Origin: Anaeromyxobacter dehalogenans 2CP-C
Lineage (GTDB): Bacteria; Myxococcota; Myxococcia; Myxococcales; Anaeromyxobacteraceae
Length of the DNA: 64,000 bases
Assembly: GCF_000013385.1 (NCBI RefSeq)
Contig: NC_007760.1
Coordinates: 3,570,001 to 3,634,000, forward strand
Direction: 5' to 3'
Every line of letters begins with the position of its first letter. Positions within the stretch are counted from its first letter, which is position 1. A program made the position numbers and the translations under genes. The notes beneath the pieces are model-generated. The model saw only the letters and a list, made by a program, of their open reading frames with translations, was not told where the DNA came from and ran no database searches. Shown piece after piece: positions 14,127 through 21,199 of the stretch.

Positions 14127-14945
14127 ATGGCGGCGACCGCGACGACCCGCACCGTGTTCGCGGTGCCGAGGATGGACTGCCCCTCCGAGGAGCGGATGAT
14201 CCGCCTGGCGCTCGAGGGCGCCGGCGGCATCGCCGAGCTCCGCTTCGATCTGCAGGCCCGGACGCTCACCGTGCTCCACGCCGGCGATCCTGGGTCCCTG
14301 CTGGCCCGGCTGCAGCCGCTCGGGCTGGGCGCCGAGGTGGCGTCCTCCGCCGCGCACGCCGGCGAGCCCGCCGGCGCCGTCGCAGCTGCGCCGGACGCAG
14401 GGGCGGAGGCGCGGACGCTGCGGCTGCTCCTCGCCGTCAACGCGGCGATGTTCCTCGTCGAGGCGGTGGCGGGCTGGCTGGCCGAGTCCACCGGCCTCAT
14501 CGCCGACTCGCTCGACATGCTGGCGGACGCGCTCGTGTACGGCCTGAGCCTCTGGGCGGTCGGCCGCGCCGCGCGGGCCCAGCTGCGGGCCGCGCACGTC
14601 TCGGGCGTGCTCCAGGCGGCGCTGGCCGCCGGGGTGTTCGCCGACGTCGCGCGGCGGCTGGTCGGGGGCAGCGCGCCGGAGCCGCCGGCCATGATCGGCG
14701 TCTCGGCCCTGGCGCTCGCCGCCAACGTCGCATGCCTGCTCCTCGTCGCCCGCCACCGCCACGGCGGCGCGCACATGAAGGCGAGCTGGATCTTCTCGAC
14801 GAACGACGTGCTCGCGAACCTGGGCGTCATCGCCGCCGGCGCGCTGGTCGCGTGGACCGGCTCGCGGCTGCCCGACCTGGTCATCGGGACGGCGGTGGCG
14901 CTGCTGGTGCTCGCCGGCGCGGTCCGCATCCTGCGGCTGCGGTGA
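14127..14945 (+). CDS. HMA-like domain fused to a cation diffusion facilitator-type membrane protein
   Basis: A 272-residue protein. Residues about 8-70 resemble a heavy-metal-associated domain, but the metal site reads MDCPSEE, with one Cys instead of CxxC. A linker leads to a membrane region that starts like a CDF transporter (LFLVEAVAGWLAES, DSLDMLADALVYGLSLWAVG). The first Asp pair (DSLDMLAD) of the CDF metal site is kept, while the second half reads STNDVLANLG. It may export a divalent metal. The fusion and the altered HMA site are unusual. Confidence 0.75.
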   Translation: MAATATTRTVFAVPRMDCPSEERMIRLALEGAGGIAELRFDLQARTLTVLHAGDPGSLLARLQPLGLGAEVASSAAHAGEPAGAVAAAPDAGAEARTLRLLLAVNAAMFLVEAVAGWLAESTGLIADSLDMLADALVYGLSLWAVGRAARAQLRAAHVSGVLQAALAAGVFADVARRLVGGSAPEPPAMIGVSALALAANVACLLLVARHRHGGAHMKASWIFSTNDVLANLGVIAAGALVAWTGSRLPDLVIGTAVALLVLAGAVRILRLR

Positions 14946-15115
14946 CCCCCTGGCTCGCGCGGCTGTGACCTCGCCCGCCGCCTGACCGGCGCCTTCCGCA
15001 GCGCGCTCGGCGCTCCCTAGTCCGCGCGCCCGCCGCCCCAAGGCGGTGCGTCACCCCTCGCGAAGGTCCGGTGTCACTCCGGGCGGCCGATCTCGCGCCA
15101 GGGAGGACTCGAACC

Positions 15116-16357
15116 ATGGGACACGTGTTGCTTCGATCGCCGTCGCACGCTGCGCTGCTCGCCTCGCTCCTGCTCGCCGCCTGCGGGGGCGGGGGTTACG
15201 GAGGCGGAGGCGGCGGAGGGGGAGGCGGCGGCTACGGCGACGGTGGGGGAGGTGGCGGGGGGGGAGGGGGCGGCGGCGAGCCGGGCGCCGCGGCGCTGTG
15301 GGTGGTCCCCGAGTCGGCGCCGGCGCTGAGCGCCGCCGGCCAGGCCGCATTCACGGCAGGTGAGCTGTTCTACAACGCGCACACCGCCGCCCACGCCGGC
15401 GGCGAGCTCCGCGGCCAGCTCGACCTGGGCGGCGCGCTGCGCGTCGCCACGCTGGACGGCGCCCAGGAGACGCCGCCGGTGATCACCAACGCGTTCGGCG
15501 CCGCGGCGTTCACCGTGGACCCCGGCACGCTCCGCATGCGCGGCGTGGTGGTGACCTCGGGGGTCCCCACCGCGAACGCCGCCCACGTGCACCTCGGCGC
15601 GCGCGGCGCGCCGGGCGGGATCATCGTCCCGCTGGCCGGCGGCCCCGAGGTCTGGGTGGTGCCGGACGACGCGGCGCCGCTCACCGCGGCCCAGCGCGAT
15701 GCGTTCGAGGCGGGCACGCTGTTCGTGAACGTCCACACCCCCGCCCACGCCGGCGGCGAGATCCGCGGCCAGCTCGACCACGGCGGCACGGCGCGCCTGG
15801 CGGCGCTCGACGGCGCGCAGGAGGTCCCGGCCACCACCTCGGGCGGCTTCGGCGCGGGCCTGCTCGTGGTGGACGACGCCACGGGCCGGCCGGGCGGCTT
15901 CGTCATCTCCCGGAAGCTCACCGCCGAGTCCGCCGCGCACGTCCACCAGGCCGCGCGGGGCGCCTCCGGCGGCGTCATCGTCCCGCTGTTCGGCCGGCCC
16001 GGGCTGTGGGTGGTGCGCGACGACGCCGACCCGCTCACCGCCGAGCAGCGGACGGCCTTCGACGCGGGCGGCCTCTACTACAACGTGCACACCACCGCGA
16101 ACCCGGCCGGCGAGATCCGCGGCCAGCTCGAGCGCGGCGGCCCGATCCGCATCGCCTCGCTCGACGGCGCGCAGGAGACGCCGCCGGTGACCTCGGCCGG
16201 GCTCGGGGCCGGGCTGCTCGCGCTCGACGACGGCGGCGGCGGCGAGGTGGGCGGGTTCGTGATCGCGGGCGGCCTCACCGGCCCGACCTCGGCGCACGTG
16301 CACCAGGGCGCGCGCGGCGCCCCCGGGGACATCCTCGTGCCGCTGTCCGGCCCCTGA
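15116..16357 (+). CDS. CHRD-repeat lipoprotein with poly-Gly linker
   Basis: A 413-residue predicted lipoprotein: signal peptide with LLLAAC (Cys23), then a Gly/Tyr-rich linker (24-54). The rest is a CHRD array with a period of about 120 residues. LDGAQE begins repeats at 113, 231 and 349; AHVH occurs at 156, 274 and 393; GE[LI]RGQL at 96, 214 and 332. The array begins with a C-terminal half-domain and ends with an N-terminal half-domain, so it is out of register. CHRD domains occur in chordin and in many bacterial surface proteins; the bacterial role is unknown. A GGGAGGA ribosome-binding site supports ATG 15116. Confidence 0.85.
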   Translation: MGHVLLRSPSHAALLASLLLAACGGGGYGGGGGGGGGGGYGDGGGGGGGGGGGGEPGAAALWVVPESAPALSAAGQAAFTAGELFYNAHTAAHAGGELRGQLDLGGALRVATLDGAQETPPVITNAFGAAAFTVDPGTLRMRGVVVTSGVPTANAAHVHLGARGAPGGIIVPLAGGPEVWVVPDDAAPLTAAQRDAFEAGTLFVNVHTPAHAGGEIRGQLDHGGTARLAALDGAQEVPATTSGGFGAGLLVVDDATGRPGGFVISRKLTAESAAHVHQAARGASGGVIVPLFGRPGLWVVRDDADPLTAEQRTAFDAGGLYYNVHTTANPAGEIRGQLERGGPIRIASLDGAQETPPVTSAGLGAGLLALDDGGGGEVGGFVIAGGLTGPTSAHVHQGARGAPGDILVPLSGP

Positions 16358-16367
16358 GGCGCAGGCC

Positions 16368-17177
16368 TCACGCCGGGACGTGCACCGTCACCGCCAGGGC
16401 ATCGGCGGTGACGTCGTACGTTCCGAGCGCGCGGGTGGCCGGGCCCTGCTGCACGGTGCCGTCGAGCGCGTAGCGCGAGTCGTGGCACGGGCAGATCACC
16501 TGGCCGCGCCCCGCGTCCCAGCCCACCGTGCAGCCGAGGTGCGTGCAGATCGCGTCCAGCGCGACGTGCGCGCCGCCGGCGAGCGCCACCACCAGGAGCG
16601 CGAGCGGGCGCGGCGCGCCGCCCGGGCGCCCGACCACCGAGCCTCCCGCGGCCGCGAGCTGGGGGAAGTCGGCGAGCGGGAACACCACCGCGCCCTCGCT
16701 CCAGCGCGGGAACCCCGGGTCTCCCGCGACGAGATCCACCGCCACCTCGTCGAGCGCCGGGTCGTGGAACGCGGCGTAGGCCGTGAGCCCCTGCACGGCG
16801 GGCGGGCGCGTCACGCGGCCCTGCAGGTCGAACGTGGAGGCGTGGCACGGGCAGACCACCTCGCCGCCCTCGAAGCCCACCGGGCAGCCCTGGTGCGTGC
16901 AGGTGCTCGACATGGCCGCGAAGGTGCCGTCGGCCGCGTGGACCACGAGCACCGGGTCGGCGAGCCCCGGCGCGCGGGCCCGCACGGCGCCCCCGGGCCG
17001 CGCGAGCGCCGGGTAGCGCGACAGCGCGAGCGTGAGCCGCCCGTTCACCGGCGCCGCGACGTCCACCAGCGGGGCGGGAGCGGTGTCGGGCGCGCAGGCG
17101 GGCAGCGCCGCGGCGGCGGCGGCCCCCGCGCCACCGGCGAGGGCGCGGACGAGGAATTGACGGCGGGTGACGCTCAT
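16368..17177 (-). CDS. Double Rieske [2Fe-2S] Tat-exported lipoprotein
   Basis: A 269-residue protein with a twin-arginine signal (TRRQFLVRAL) and a lipobox-like LPAC (Cys28). It holds two complete Rieske domains in tandem: cluster ligands C93-T-H95-x2-C98 with C109-P-C111-H112, and C211-T-H213-x2-C216 with C229-P-C231-H232. Each site has the usual CTHxGC / CPCH pair. Single Rieske proteins serve quinol oxidases and dioxygenases; two in one soluble chain suggests an electron wire or a two-cluster reductase subunit. Its ATG overlaps the stop of the YceI gene (ATGA), so both form an operon. No cytochrome b partner is adjacent. Confidence 0.92.
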   Translation of the reverse strand: MSVTRRQFLVRALAGGAGAAAAAALPACAPDTAPAPLVDVAAPVNGRLTLALSRYPALARPGGAVRARAPGLADPVLVVHAADGTFAAMSSTCTHQGCPVGFEGGEVVCPCHASTFDLQGRVTRPPAVQGLTAYAAFHDPALDEVAVDLVAGDPGFPRWSEGAVVFPLADFPQLAAAGGSVVGRPGGAPRPLALLVVALAGGAHVALDAICTHLGCTVGWDAGRGQVICPCHDSRYALDGTVQQGPATRALGTYDVTADALAVTVHVPA

Positions 17178-17740
17178 GGCTCGCCCTCGAGCTCGAGCCG
17201 CGCGTCCACGTCCACGCGGTCGTCCACCTTCACGAACAGCAGCTCGGGCCGCTCCACCTGGTGCGCGTCCAGGCTCACCGGGAAGGTCGCCTCGACCCGG
17301 GCGCGGTCGGGCGCGTCGAAGTGCACGGCAGCCGCCACCTCGACCGGCCGCGGCGACTTGAGCGTCAGCTCGCCGCGCAGCGCGATCCGCAGGTCCGCCG
17401 GGTACCGGTCCGGCGGCTCGAGGTGGCCGACGCCCTTGAAGACGACGTACGGCTGCCGCGCCGCGCCGGTGACCTCGAGCATGTGCGCGTCGCGGTTCGA
17501 GTTGCCCGAATGGAAGGAGTCGAGCGGCGCGCGGACCATCACCTGCACCGTCCCGTCCGGCAGGAGGCGCGCCCTCCCCTCCACCGCGCGGGAGAGCCCG
17601 TTCACCTCGTGGAACTTGTGGACGAGCCGGTACGCCAGCGTGCTGGCCGGGCCGACGGCGAACGTGCGCGGGGTGGCCTCGACGGGCGAGGCCGAGCGGG
17701 CGAGTGCGGCGACCAGCGAGACGGCGAGCGCGGCGATCAT
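17174..17740 (-). CDS. YceI-family periplasmic protein
   Basis: A 188-residue secreted protein of the YceI/lipocalin-like family, known to bind isoprenoid chains. After a signal peptide it has the family features LAYRLVHKFHEVNGLS and SFHSGNSNRDAHMLEV. ATG 17740 is preferred over an upstream start because it opens directly into a good signal peptide. It is the first gene of an operon with the double Rieske protein (4-bp overlap), which hints at a quinone-related role for the pair. Confidence 0.85.
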   Translation of the reverse strand: MIAALAVSLVAALARSASPVEATPRTFAVGPASTLAYRLVHKFHEVNGLSRAVEGRARLLPDGTVQVMVRAPLDSFHSGNSNRDAHMLEVTGAARQPYVVFKGVGHLEPPDRYPADLRIALRGELTLKSPRPVEVAAAVHFDAPDRARVEATFPVSLDAHQVERPELLFVKVDDRVDVDARLELEGEP

Positions 17741-17861
17741 GCCGTCCAGACACCCGGCGTCGGCGGCCGGGGACACCTCGCACCCGAGGTACGCGTACCC
17801 CCGTTGGGCCCGCCGCAGCGAGACCCACGCGCCGCTCCGCGGGTGTCGTTAGGAACGTGCG

Positions 17862-18353
17862 GTGGCGATGGACGAGGAGGCGGCTGCCCGGCTGTACCGG
17901 ACCTACGGCCCGGTCGTCTACCGTCGCTGCCTGCGTCTGCTCCGGGATCGCGAGCTGGCCCGCGACGCGACGCAGGACGTGTTCGTGCAGCTCCTGCGAC
18001 ACTGGACCACCTCGACCGAGCCGGAGGCGGTGCTCCACTGGATCTACCGCGTGGCCACCAACCACTGCCTCAACCTGCTGCGCAACGCGCGGCGCCACGG
18101 CGAGCGGCCGCTGGAGCTGGCCCCGGCGCACGCGGCGGCGGGGACGGCCGCCGAGCCGCAGCGCCTGGTGGCGCAGCGGGTGCTGTCCCGGTTCGACGAG
18201 GTGACGCAGGCGGTCGCGGTGGGGGTGTTCGTGGACGGGATGGAGCACGAGGAGCTGGCGCGGGCGCTCGGGATCTCCCGGCGCACGGTGAGCCGGCGGC
18301 TCGACCGCTTCGTCGAGTCCGCGCGCGAGTACCTGGCCCGAGGTGAGGGATGA
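17862..18353 (+). CDS. ECF-family RNA polymerase sigma factor
   Basis: A 163-residue ECF sigma factor. Region 2 spans about 8-75 (DATQDVFVQLLRHW, WIYRVATNHCLNLLRN) and region 4 the last 60 residues (EHEELARALGISRRTVSRRL). GTG 17862 or ATG 17868 could be the start; AGGA at 17851 serves either. The stop overlaps the anti-sigma start (ATGA). It is divergent from the YceI/Rieske operon, which is therefore a candidate target. Confidence 0.92.
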   Translation: MAMDEEAAARLYRTYGPVVYRRCLRLLRDRELARDATQDVFVQLLRHWTTSTEPEAVLHWIYRVATNHCLNLLRNARRHGERPLELAPAHAAAGTAAEPQRLVAQRVLSRFDEVTQAVAVGVFVDGMEHEELARALGISRRTVSRRLDRFVESAREYLARGEG

Positions 18354-19099
18354 CGGCCTGCCCGTCCGACCTGAGGCTGGAGGGCCTGCTGCTCGCGCCC
18401 GACGGCGCGGACGCGGCGCACGTGACCGCCTGCCCGGCGTGCCAGGAGCGCCTCGCCGAGATGCGCGCCCAGGGCGAGGCGTTCGCGCGCGAGGTGTACC
18501 CGGCGACCGTGGACGCGGTGCTCGCGTCCGTGCGGAGCGCGCCGGTGCGGGGCGCGCCGGGCCCCCGGCCCGCGCCGCGCCTGCGCTGGCTGCGGTTCGC
18601 CGTCCCGCTCGCCGCGGCCGCCGCGGCCGCCCTGTTCCTCCTCGTGCGCCTGCGCCCGGCGCCCACGGTGGAGCTGTCGGTGTTCGTGAAGGACGCCGCG
18701 CGCGCCGCCCCGGTGGCCGACGGCGAGCCGGTCCCCGCGTCGGCCGCCCTCCGCTTCGAGGTCCACCCCAGCTCGCCCTGCTGCCTGTGGATCCTCTCGG
18801 TCGATCCCAGCGGGAACATCGCGCGGCTCTATCCGCCGAAGGGCGACAAGGCCTCCGAGGAGCTCATCCACCCGGCCGAGCCGCATGCGCTGCCCACCAC
18901 CGCCGTCCTCGACGGGCGGGCCGGCCCGGCGCGCATCTTCGCGGTGTGCACCAAGGCGCCGGTGCCGTGGCCGGCGCTGAAGGACGCCGCCGCGAAGAAG
19001 CTCGAGAAGGGCGACGACGCCGTGCGCCAGCTCCGCGCCATCAGCGGCCTGCCCAGGGGCTCGGCGCAGACGTCGGTGCTGATCGAGAAGCGCGGCTGA
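18350..19099 (+). CDS. Putative zinc-binding anti-sigma factor
   Basis: A 249-residue single-pass membrane protein. The N-terminus carries HVTACPAC (His-x3-Cys-x2-Cys), the core of the zinc-binding anti-sigma motif. One membrane segment lies at about 82-102 after an Arg/Pro-rich stretch. The outer domain is about 145 residues, contains SSPCCLWILSVDPSGNIARL and resembles the DUF4384-like sensor domains of other anti-sigma factors. Translational coupling with the ECF gene (ATGA) supports the pairing. Confidence 0.85.
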   Translation: MTACPSDLRLEGLLLAPDGADAAHVTACPACQERLAEMRAQGEAFAREVYPATVDAVLASVRSAPVRGAPGPRPAPRLRWLRFAVPLAAAAAAALFLLVRLRPAPTVELSVFVKDAARAAPVADGEPVPASAALRFEVHPSSPCCLWILSVDPSGNIARLYPPKGDKASEELIHPAEPHALPTTAVLDGRAGPARIFAVCTKAPVPWPALKDAAAKKLEKGDDAVRQLRAISGLPRGSAQTSVLIEKRG

Positions 19100-19125: not shown

Positions 19126-19788
19126 TCAGAACAGCAGCACCGTCACCCCGATCGTCATCGCGCCGAGCGTCGCGTAGCCCACGCCCTGGTGCACCGCCGC
19201 CAGGTCGCGCTCGGAGAGGCTCCCCGCCCGCCGCCGCGCCACGATGCCGAGCACGATCTGCGTGACCATGCCGGCCGTGGCCGCGCCCATGGCGATCTTG
19301 TGCAGGAGCGCGGTGTCGAGCCGGACCGGCTCCGCGAGCGGCTTCGGGGCGAGCACGCCGAGGAGCGCGGTCGAGAGGAACAGGGCGCTCGTGCCGTAGG
19401 CGAGCCCGCGGTGCCAGGCGTGGTAGCGGCCGGTGTCGCCCCCGCCGCGGAAGCGGTCGTCGAAGTCCAGCTGGCCGACCACCGTGGTGGCGGCCAGCGC
19501 CGCCCAGGTCGCCAGGCCGATGGCGGGGTGCAGCGTCAGCATCCGGCGGCGCCGCTCGAGCTGGCGCTGGATGCGGGGATCGGCCTGCTTCGCGGGCCGC
19601 CCCAGGAGGTCGAAGTCGAGATCCGGCGGCTGCGTCGGCTCCAGGTTCGGGCGAGGCCCGGCGGGCGCGTGGCGCGGCGCCTCGTCCCCGGTCTCCTTCG
19701 CGGTCTCCCCGGCGCGCGCCGGCCCGGCGGCGGCCAGCGCCAGGGCGAGCGCCACCCCGGCGGCTCCACGCAGTGCGTTCGCGGTCAT
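19126..19788 (-). CDS. Membrane protein, cytochrome b-like, unknown function
   Basis: A 220-residue protein with a signal peptide, a charged soluble segment of about 60 residues, and four to five membrane segments. Several His sit near the membrane segments (LTLHPAIGLATWAAL, GRYHAWHRGLAYG, LLHKIAMG, AVHQGVGYATLG), a pattern seen in haem b-binding membrane proteins. It is divergent from the diheme cytochrome c gene, so a joint electron-transfer role is plausible. Haem binding is inferred only from the His pattern. Confidence 0.7.
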   Translation of the reverse strand: MTANALRGAAGVALALALAAAGPARAGETAKETGDEAPRHAPAGPRPNLEPTQPPDLDFDLLGRPAKQADPRIQRQLERRRRMLTLHPAIGLATWAALAATTVVGQLDFDDRFRGGGDTGRYHAWHRGLAYGTSALFLSTALLGVLAPKPLAEPVRLDTALLHKIAMGAATAGMVTQIVLGIVARRRAGSLSERDLAAVHQGVGYATLGAMTIGVTVLLF

Positions 19789-19915
19789 CCCGGGTTCCGA
19801 CACCCGGCGCCGCCCCCGTGCGACACCGGGCGCGTCGAACGGCCCGGATGAAGCCCGCCGAAACGCGCCGCCTCGCCCGCGCATCGGATCCACGGACCGG
19901 AACCGGAGGAGCGAG

Positions 19916-21199
19916 ATGCCTCGACGCGTGAACGCAGGAACGGCCGCCTGGCTGCTGGGCGCGACCGTCGTCACCTTCACCCTCGCCACGGCGGCGCTCG
20001 CGACGCCGAGGGGCGGCCCGAGGTCGGCCATCGCGGAGGGCCGGCAGGTGTTCCGCTACGACACCTTCGGCGACGAGGCGTTCTGGAGCGGCGTGCTGCG
20101 CCTGCACGAGCCCATCGCCACGCTGACGCCGCTCCAGGCGCTCGGCGCCGGCCTGAAGGTGGACCTCGACGCGCTGCCCGCCGCCACGGTGGACGCGCTC
20201 CGCGCTGGCCAGGTGAACCTCGACGATCCCGGCGTCACGCTGGACCTGCTCGCGCGCGACGCGGTGGTCGGCGTGAAGGCGAAGATCGAGGACGGCGCGC
20301 TCCGCTCGGTGGGCATCACCTGCGCGCTCTGCCACTCCACCGTGGACGACGCGCTCGCGCCCGGCGTCGGCCACCGGCTCGACGGCTGGCCCAACCGCGA
20401 CCTGAACGTCGGCGCCATCGTCGGGCTGTCGCCGAACCTCCAGCCCGTCGCGGACCTGCTCGGCGTGGACGTCCCGACGCTGCGCTCGGTGATCGAGGCA
20501 TGGGGACCGGGCAAGTTCGACGCGACCGTGTTCCTCGACGGGAAGGGCTTCCGACCGGACGGCAAGACCGCGGCAACGCTCATCCCGCCGGCGTTCGGCC
20601 TGGCCGGCGTGAACCTGCACACGTTCACGGGCTGGGGCCAGGTCACCTACTGGAACGCGTTCGTCGCGAACCTCGAGATGCACGGCCAGGGCACGTTCTT
20701 CGACCCGCGCCTCGACGACGCGACGAAGTACCCGATCGCCGCGCGCAACGGCTTCGGGCACGTGCGGCCGCCCGAGGGCCAGCCGGATCTCGTCACGCCG
20801 AAGCTGCCCGCGCTCCACGCCTACCAGCTCTCGCTCGACGCGCCCACGCCGCCCGAGGGCAGCTTCGACCCGGCGGCGGCCGCCCGCGGCGGCGCGCTCT
20901 TCGCCGGCGCGGCGAAGTGCGCGACCTGCCACGTCCCCCCGATCTTCACGGAGCCCGGCTGGAACCTGCACACGCCGGCCGAGATCGGGATCGACGACTT
21001 CCAGGCGAACCGGGGTCCCGAGGGGCGCTACCGGACCACGCCGCTGCGCGGCCTGTGGGCGCACGCGAAGGGCGGCTACTACCACGACGGCCGCTTCGCC
21101 ACGCTGGGTGACGTCGTGGACCACTACGACCAGCACCTCGGCCTCGGCCTCACGCCGGCGCAGCGCCAGGATCTGGTGGAGTACCTGAAGTCGCTCTGA
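19916..21199 (+). CDS. Secreted diheme c-type cytochrome
   Basis: A 427-residue protein with a signal peptide and two CxxCH haem sites, CALCH at 136-140 and CATCH at 335-339. The second half (RGGALFAGAAKCATCHVPP, later GLWAHAKGGYYHDGRFATLGDVVDHY) resembles the C-terminal domain of the diheme cytochrome c peroxidase/MauG superfamily, in which such proteins reduce peroxide or carry electrons in the periplasm. The first haem region is not typical of CcpA, so peroxidase activity is uncertain. A GGAGGAG ribosome-binding site precedes ATG 19916. Confidence 0.85.
   Translation: MPRRVNAGTAAWLLGATVVTFTLATAALATPRGGPRSAIAEGRQVFRYDTFGDEAFWSGVLRLHEPIATLTPLQALGAGLKVDLDALPAATVDALRAGQVNLDDPGVTLDLLARDAVVGVKAKIEDGALRSVGITCALCHSTVDDALAPGVGHRLDGWPNRDLNVGAIVGLSPNLQPVADLLGVDVPTLRSVIEAWGPGKFDATVFLDGKGFRPDGKTAATLIPPAFGLAGVNLHTFTGWGQVTYWNAFVANLEMHGQGTFFDPRLDDATKYPIAARNGFGHVRPPEGQPDLVTPKLPALHAYQLSLDAPTPPEGSFDPAAAARGGALFAGAAKCATCHVPPIFTEPGWNLHTPAEIGIDDFQANRGPEGRYRTTPLRGLWAHAKGGYYHDGRFATLGDVVDHYDQHLGLGLTPAQRQDLVEYLKSL

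Follow-up and report, generated by a model that had tools for sequence, protein, structure and literature searches.

A stretch of 64,000 nucleotides (nt) of the Anaeromyxobacter dehalogenans 2CP-C genome (NC_007760.1, positions 3,570,001 to 3,634,000), hereafter the window, encodes a lipid-anchored protein with two Rieske domains, a YceI-domain protein, a four-helix transmembrane (TM) protein and an extracytoplasmic function (ECF) sigma factor with its anti-sigma factor. Across Myxococcota the natural unit among these genes is a three-gene operon of TM, YceI and double Rieske, in this order. We read it as an inner-membrane/periplasm electron-transfer module that would be driven by the ECF sigma factor in the A. 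dehalogenans clade, a reading to which we assign a probability of roughly 0.6. It draws on the gene content and its conservation, the insertion of the ECF pair, the swap of one carrier protein for another and the placement of a promoter-like motif, all of which are observed in the sequences. The features concerned are, in window coordinates:

16368-17177, minus strand: double-Rieske [2Fe-2S] protein with a twin-arginine translocation (Tat) signal and a lipobox, 269 aa (motif reading, Pfam, alignment and AlphaFold2 model)
17174-17740, minus strand: exported YceI-domain protein, start ATG 17740 (a longer open reading frame runs from GTG 17776)
17749-17777, minus strand: promoter-like element GGTGTC-N17-GGTGTC (core TGTCCC-N15-GGTGTC, 17775-17749), 8 nt before the yceI ATG
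17821-17847, plus strand: degenerate copy of the element, AGACCC-N15-GGTGTC, upstream of the ECF gene (intergenic alignment)
17862-18353, plus strand: ECF sigma factor, 163 aa
18350-19099, plus strand: zinc-binding anti-sigma factor (ZAS) with a TM segment and a DUF4384-like C-terminal domain (motif, Pfam)
19126-19788, minus strand: four-helix membrane protein, putatively b561-like, with invariant H87, H126, H163 and H200; first gene of the ancestral operon
19799-19827, minus strand: promoter-like element GGTGTC-N17-GGTGTC (core TGTCGC-N15-GGTGTC, 19825-19799), 10 nt before the TM ATG

A three-gene operon in Myxococcota

Relatives of the double-Rieske protein are present in 70 of 195 Myxococcota genomes at E <= 1e-15 (a few of the matches span one domain only), and 74 double-Rieske loci were compared; the genomes are of uneven completeness, and counts from related genomes are not independent. 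A YceI gene lies within 300 nt of the Rieske gene on the same strand at 59/74 loci, and a TM gene within 1.5 kb on the same strand at 60/74. Both stand beside the Rieske gene in the order TM-YceI-Rieske at 55 loci, and four more have this arrangement split by the ECF pair. The operon is unbroken in A. oryzae of the same genus, with no ECF gene inside it. No cytochrome b or c1 gene was found among the module genes. The module also occurs in a record titled Comamonas sp. KCTC 72670 (L164), where it is myxobacterial in character and the title may be wrong.

The original prediction had grouped the Rieske, YceI, ECF and anti-sigma genes as one set, whose conservation across myxobacteria was to be checked. 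YceI and Rieske do belong to one unit, to which the overlooked TM gene (19126-19788, minus strand) must be added. The four genes as a conserved unit are rejected, since ECF and anti-sigma orthologues occur at only 5/74 double-Rieske loci and the pair elsewhere stands beside a caspase-like gene.

That two full Rieske sites lie in one exported lipoprotein, as had been predicted, is confirmed. Site 1 (C93-T-H95...C109-P-C-H112) and site 2 (C211-T-H213...C229-P-C-H232) are both complete, both have the additional Cys pair known from bc-type Rieske proteins, and PF00355 matches two stretches of the protein (7.7e-26, Pfam scan); the N-terminus carries RRQFL and the lipobox Cys is C28. In the conservation alignments, which were dereplicated and freed of short rows (TM 44 of 84, YceI 24 of 74 and Rieske 25 of 74), the ligands are kept in 25/25 rows for site 1 and 24/25 for site 2, R5 and R6 in 23/25 each, C28 in 24/25, and a Phe (F116) occupies the Tyr position of domain 1 in 25/25. 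The AlphaFold2 model (mean predicted local distance difference test score 89.6) contains two confident Rieske folds at residues ~44-154 and ~160-269. Both match solved Rieske structures (Z up to 14.7), domain 1 being closest to Rieske ferredoxins and domain 2 to bc/b6f-type domains. Site 2 is degenerate in two relatives, having lost its ligands in L062:9483-10280 and the extra Cys pair in L053:9073-9801.

The predicted coupling of YceI to the Rieske gene holds as well: the two genes overlap by 4 nt, and the window YceI matches PF04264 at 7.1e-10 (39.9 bits, cut-off 23.7), as do 20/20 family members at 0.001. Gene starts are our choice, and ATG 17740 was picked from the motif position and the reading frame. 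Downstream of the operon, the four A. dehalogenans-clade loci have a gene for a multi-CHRD-domain protein (15071-16357, plus strand) that converges on the Rieske gene, and weak CHRD matches adjoin the Rieske gene in two other loci (L058, L063). The cation efflux protein encoded at 14127-14945 (plus strand) weakly matches a heavy-metal-associated domain at its N-terminus.

The TM protein has 220 aa, and its four His (H87, H126, H163, H200) are invariant in 44/44 dereplicated members. Each lies at the start of a predicted helix in the four-helix model; given alternating topology, the first and third His come to lie on one side and the second and fourth on the opposite one. Two pairs of facing His are the arrangement for two b hemes in cytochrome b561. 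Among 30 TM members, b561 families were matched by 13 (PF03188) and 8 (PF01292), all weakly, and none of the 17 Pfam families listed for them was a cytochrome b6/bc family. We infer a protein that is b561-like, short of an established b561, and predict two b hemes; a bis-His two-heme description of b561 is found in the part of PMC9113575 available to us. Divergent from the TM gene lies a MauG-like gene of the diheme cytochrome c peroxidase type (19850-21199, plus strand), which is present in three of the four A. dehalogenans-clade loci and was not detected in G035 or in other double-Rieske loci.

The third gene also has an alternative form. Loci with TM and YceI genes that lack Rieske were drawn from 19 additional loci with TM matches, some TM matches being left out, and lipoproteins with CXXCH motifs were then counted on the same strand within 2 kb in 99 loci, four of the query sequences coming from counted loci. 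A two-CXXCH lipoprotein adjoins TM/YceI in 16/23 Rieske-less loci, as against 0/76 loci with Rieske, and the same replacement is seen in named metagenome-assembled genomes (L172, L175, L176). The presence of two unrelated redox proteins in one slot argues that the third gene would encode a periplasmic one-electron carrier, which lends support to the predicted role of the locus in envelope electron transfer. YceI proteins are widespread and a b561 partner has been linked to envelope antioxidant defence; a third partner in two interchangeable forms makes testable the route by which electrons enter or leave the pair.

The inserted sigma factor and its promoter-like element

A divergent operon of an ECF sigma factor and a zinc anti-sigma factor had been predicted, and was recovered. 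The ECF protein matches TIGR02937 at 6.2e-20 (71.5 bits, cut-off 42.9) and has sigma-70 regions 2 and 4, its gene overlaps that of the anti-sigma factor by 4 nt, and the H-x3-C-x2-C motif is present in 33/33 anti-sigma orthologues, the window copy included. The DUF4384-like match at the C-terminus of the anti-sigma factor (2e-5) is slightly under the cut-off.

Only four genomes have the pair inside the operon, between TM and YceI and in the opposite direction. These are the window genome (G000), Anaeromyxobacter sp. PSR-1 (G036), G031 and G035, which share a common arrangement and constitute what we call the A. dehalogenans clade; their ECF proteins form one group in the tree (support 100/100). 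At the fifth double-Rieske locus with orthologues (G039) the pair lies outside the operon. In G039 the Rieske protein has one domain, and a different ECF gene (L055:10955-11692, minus strand) lies directly upstream of TM on the same strand. A general association of ECF genes with the module was considered and rejected, as any ECF gene within 3 kb was found in 10/93 modules, including the four insertions and G039.

Outside the clade the pair has other company. A caspase-like gene directly follows the anti-sigma gene at 7/10 family loci (PF00656 was confirmed for one), and one is present at 26/29 ECF-bearing loci outside the clade versus 0/4 inside; several of these ECF-anti-sigma-caspase loci adjoin glnA. 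This context indicates a separate history of the ECF pair, which came to the module in a single clade. Beside glnA, the window genome has only an anti-sigma/DUF4384-like remnant (G000:C1:4884677-4885204, minus strand), with neither ECF nor caspase gene. The insertion is a case in which the takeover of an older operon by a sigma factor is legible in the gene order and the copies of the promoter-like element of four genomes.

The element was first seen when intergenic regions were aligned, as GGTGTC twice, 17 nt apart, before both yceI and TM. The window holds two exact copies of GGTGTC-N17-GGTGTC (0.01 expected), and the whole 5.01 Mb genome has no others; both stand at the module, and the reversed control gives 0. 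With two mismatches allowed, the window holds 5 matches against 9.5 expected, hence only exact matches carry weight. The spacers vary between genomes and the hexamers are conserved. Outside the clade, the unrefined motif is exact upstream of one A. oryzae ECF orthologue (reached by 0/1000 shuffles), and GGTGT is present in 18/29 upstream regions of ECF orthologues, versus 3.9 expected. A refined form, TGKCVC-N15-GGTGTC, precedes TM in 4/84 and YceI in 4/74 regions, both times in the same four genomes with the ECF insertion, and the Rieske gene in 0/74. It is found before 5/29 ECF orthologues outside the clade; on the opposite strand of those 29 regions, there were no matches to the loose form. 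The four clade genomes contain 14 refined matches, of which 8 are the yceI and TM sites.

Control of both operon halves by the ECF factor is therefore well supported in silico, and the sigma-factor control that had been predicted finds its support in this shared element. The original prediction was to fall if the gene pairs occurred independently in relatives and the YceI/Rieske operon did not respond to the sigma factor; the former is what we found, and the latter is contradicted by the placement of the motif, as far as sequence can speak for a response. One could still regard the ECF pair as a chance neighbour without control, the repeats belonging to another regulator of both halves. Such an account would fit the 69/74 double-Rieske loci that have no ECF orthologue and the degenerate copy upstream of the ECF gene itself, and a dimeric factor could recognise direct repeats that lie 23 bp apart. 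We nevertheless consider it unlikely, because the element upstream of TM and YceI is restricted to the four insertion genomes and also stands before ECF orthologues elsewhere, and because in its layout it corresponds to an ECF promoter type already described, that of ECF41, given as TGTCACA-16-CGTC in the portion of PMC3426412 consulted.

The element also appears beside YceI units in other lineages. For instance, in A. oryzae (G032) it precedes a run of three genes, encoding a cupredoxin-like lipoprotein (match 0.00024, under the cut-off), another lipoprotein and a YceI protein (66.1 bits), which lies ~5 kb from an ECF-anti-sigma-caspase locus. In G045 a YceI gene (48.4 bits) follows it at 9 nt, and the contig concerned also carries the ECF gene of that genome. 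Eight genomes together hold 30 YceI genes, 4 of which are served by the element (in G000, G035, G032 via the gene run, and G045). Sixteen matches in relatives were inspected besides two ECF promoters, as part of the larger set of 55 considered below; the clear downstream genes among them are the YceI gene of G045 and a DUF5666 lipoprotein gene of G046, and several others lie inside coding frames or without a close gene. These placements suggest that the ECF family may be recurrently linked to YceI genes and periplasmic redox proteins.

Two further observations concern these genomes. The DUF5666 lipoprotein gene of G046 (L272:1795-3306, plus strand) starts 46 nt after the motif and ~4 kb from the ECF-anti-sigma-caspase locus, and a plastocyanin/azurin-type lipoprotein (L085:671-1117, minus strand; PF00127, 21.4 against 21.2 bits) is divergent from the G045 ECF gene.

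Proposed mechanism and its weighing

From these data we infer hemes, a direction of electron flow, a ligand, a signal and a course of transcription as follows. The four-helix di-heme protein would draw its electrons either from the quinol pool or from a quinone bound in the YceI lipocalin, and the lipid-anchored double-Rieske protein would pass them onward one by one, a slot that the two-CXXCH lipoprotein may fill in other myxobacteria. The ligand of YceI is most likely an isoprenoid quinone, by analogy with the Neisseria homologue, which holds one according to work cited in the accessible part of PMC9113575. Put without a fixed direction, the TM protein would most likely relay electrons between membrane quinol and the face toward the periplasm, and the Rieske protein would carry them singly to or from the quinone in YceI. 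The likely job of the module would be to keep an envelope isoprenoid-quinone/lipid-radical defence reduced, or to discharge it, as proposed for LcoA-BcnA. The ECF/ZAS anti-sigma pair was inserted between operon genes one and two in the A. dehalogenans clade; the ECF factor would be set free when the anti-sigma factor perceives an envelope signal through its DUF4384 part, and would then drive both halves, and itself weakly, via TGKCVC-N15-GGTGTC promoters.

Several results weigh against this reading. No YceI gene was found near the Rieske gene at 15/74 loci, some of them close to contig ends, and 7/23 Rieske-less loci have no CXXCH lipoprotein on the same strand. The copy of the motif before the ECF gene itself has two mismatches. 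The refined motif was set with the ECF upstream regions in view, so that in part its counts reflect the fitting; across 24 genomes of the family there are 55 matches versus 24 in the reversed control, meaning that about 24 are expected by chance, and the other 3/5 matches in the window genome have no convincing target gene. The TM protein of the window has no PF03188 or PF01292 match even at 0.5, 0/10 individually scanned members exceed the Pfam b561 cut-off, and the best E-value among 30 is 0.0002. A profile comparison of the TM family with PF01292 homologues was not significant (probability 2.6), so that the reading as a plain PF01292 member was rejected, and a Foldseek search with the TM model returned nothing at E <= 0.001. 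In VIA-align the model reached b561 at Z 10.5, below designed four-helix bundles at Z 14, and the likeness is thus non-specific.

This lack of a significant fold or profile match might indicate that the TM protein is a heme-free four-helix scaffold whose invariant His serve another role. We hold that to be very unlikely, given that a His stands at the start of each of the four helices, on alternating sides, in 44/44 members, and that sub-threshold b561 matches recur among them.

As to the end use of the electrons, two other accounts deserve attention. The module could be a defence against lipid-peroxyl and quinone radicals equivalent to LcoA-BcnA, with the Rieske protein as an accessory carrier outside any respiratory path, for which the odds seem to us only slightly short of even. 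It agrees with the Burkholderia pairing of b561 and YceI, linked to protection from membrane lipid peroxidation in the part of PMC9113575 available, and with E. coli, where yceJ and yceI are neighbours listed under CpxR in the consulted section of PMC2731931; envelope-stress control of such pairs is thus not without precedent, under a different regulator. LcoA-BcnA as the available text describes it, however, lacks a dedicated double one-electron carrier. Alternatively, the module may be a respiratory branch to periplasmic or extracellular acceptors, as proposed for a Shewanella YceJ-YceI chain. The adjoining MauG-like gene would suit this account, but its patchy occurrence noted above tells against it, and the S. 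decolorationis path, in the part of PMC8981235 available, is proposed from co-expression together with cited work. We find a respiratory role rather doubtful, and the antioxidant end use is the better bet because of the likeness to LcoA-BcnA.

If the inner-membrane/periplasm electron-transfer module is extended to its furthest form, it would be a minimal quinol oxidiser unlike bc1, in which a di-heme four-helix protein and a quinol-presenting YceI feed the two Rieske clusters of one tethered protein with one electron each, the carriers (Rieske, CXXCH, perhaps cupredoxin) can replace one another, and YceI-carrier units have come repeatedly under the control of one ECF family. We put this forward as a speculation that is more probably wrong than right.

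Comparison with known systems

Among the open-access papers searched, none coupled YceI with b561 and Rieske, those retrieved for YceI with Rieske were unrelated by title, and the one retrieved for double Rieske proteins concerned complex III. The closest known systems are LcoA-BcnA of Burkholderia cenocepacia and YceJ-YceI of E. coli, each a cytochrome b561 with a YceI lipocalin. The module resembles them in its envelope location and in having a membrane four-helix gene followed by a YceI gene, the two being adjacent in relatives. It differs in that its TM protein is far diverged, the window copy being without a Pfam match, in its third gene for a double-Rieske or CXXCH carrier, and in being split by, and probably driven by, an ECF pair in the A. 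dehalogenans clade. Both Rieske domains of the window share with bc1/b6f Rieske proteins the C-x-H...C-x-x-H ligands and the disulfide Cys pair, and domain 2 superposes on the bc-type soluble domain 8hn2 (Z 14.7, root-mean-square deviation 2.1, 102 aligned). Unlike in bc1/b6f, two clusters reside in one lipid-anchored chain, whose partners are YceI and a 220-aa four-helix protein. The promoter-like element, with its TGTC-type -35, TGTC/CGTC-type -10 and similar spacing, is akin to that of ECF41, whereas the window ECF factor has only 163 aa, with region 4 ending near the C-terminus and no long C-terminal extension, and is partnered by a ZAS.

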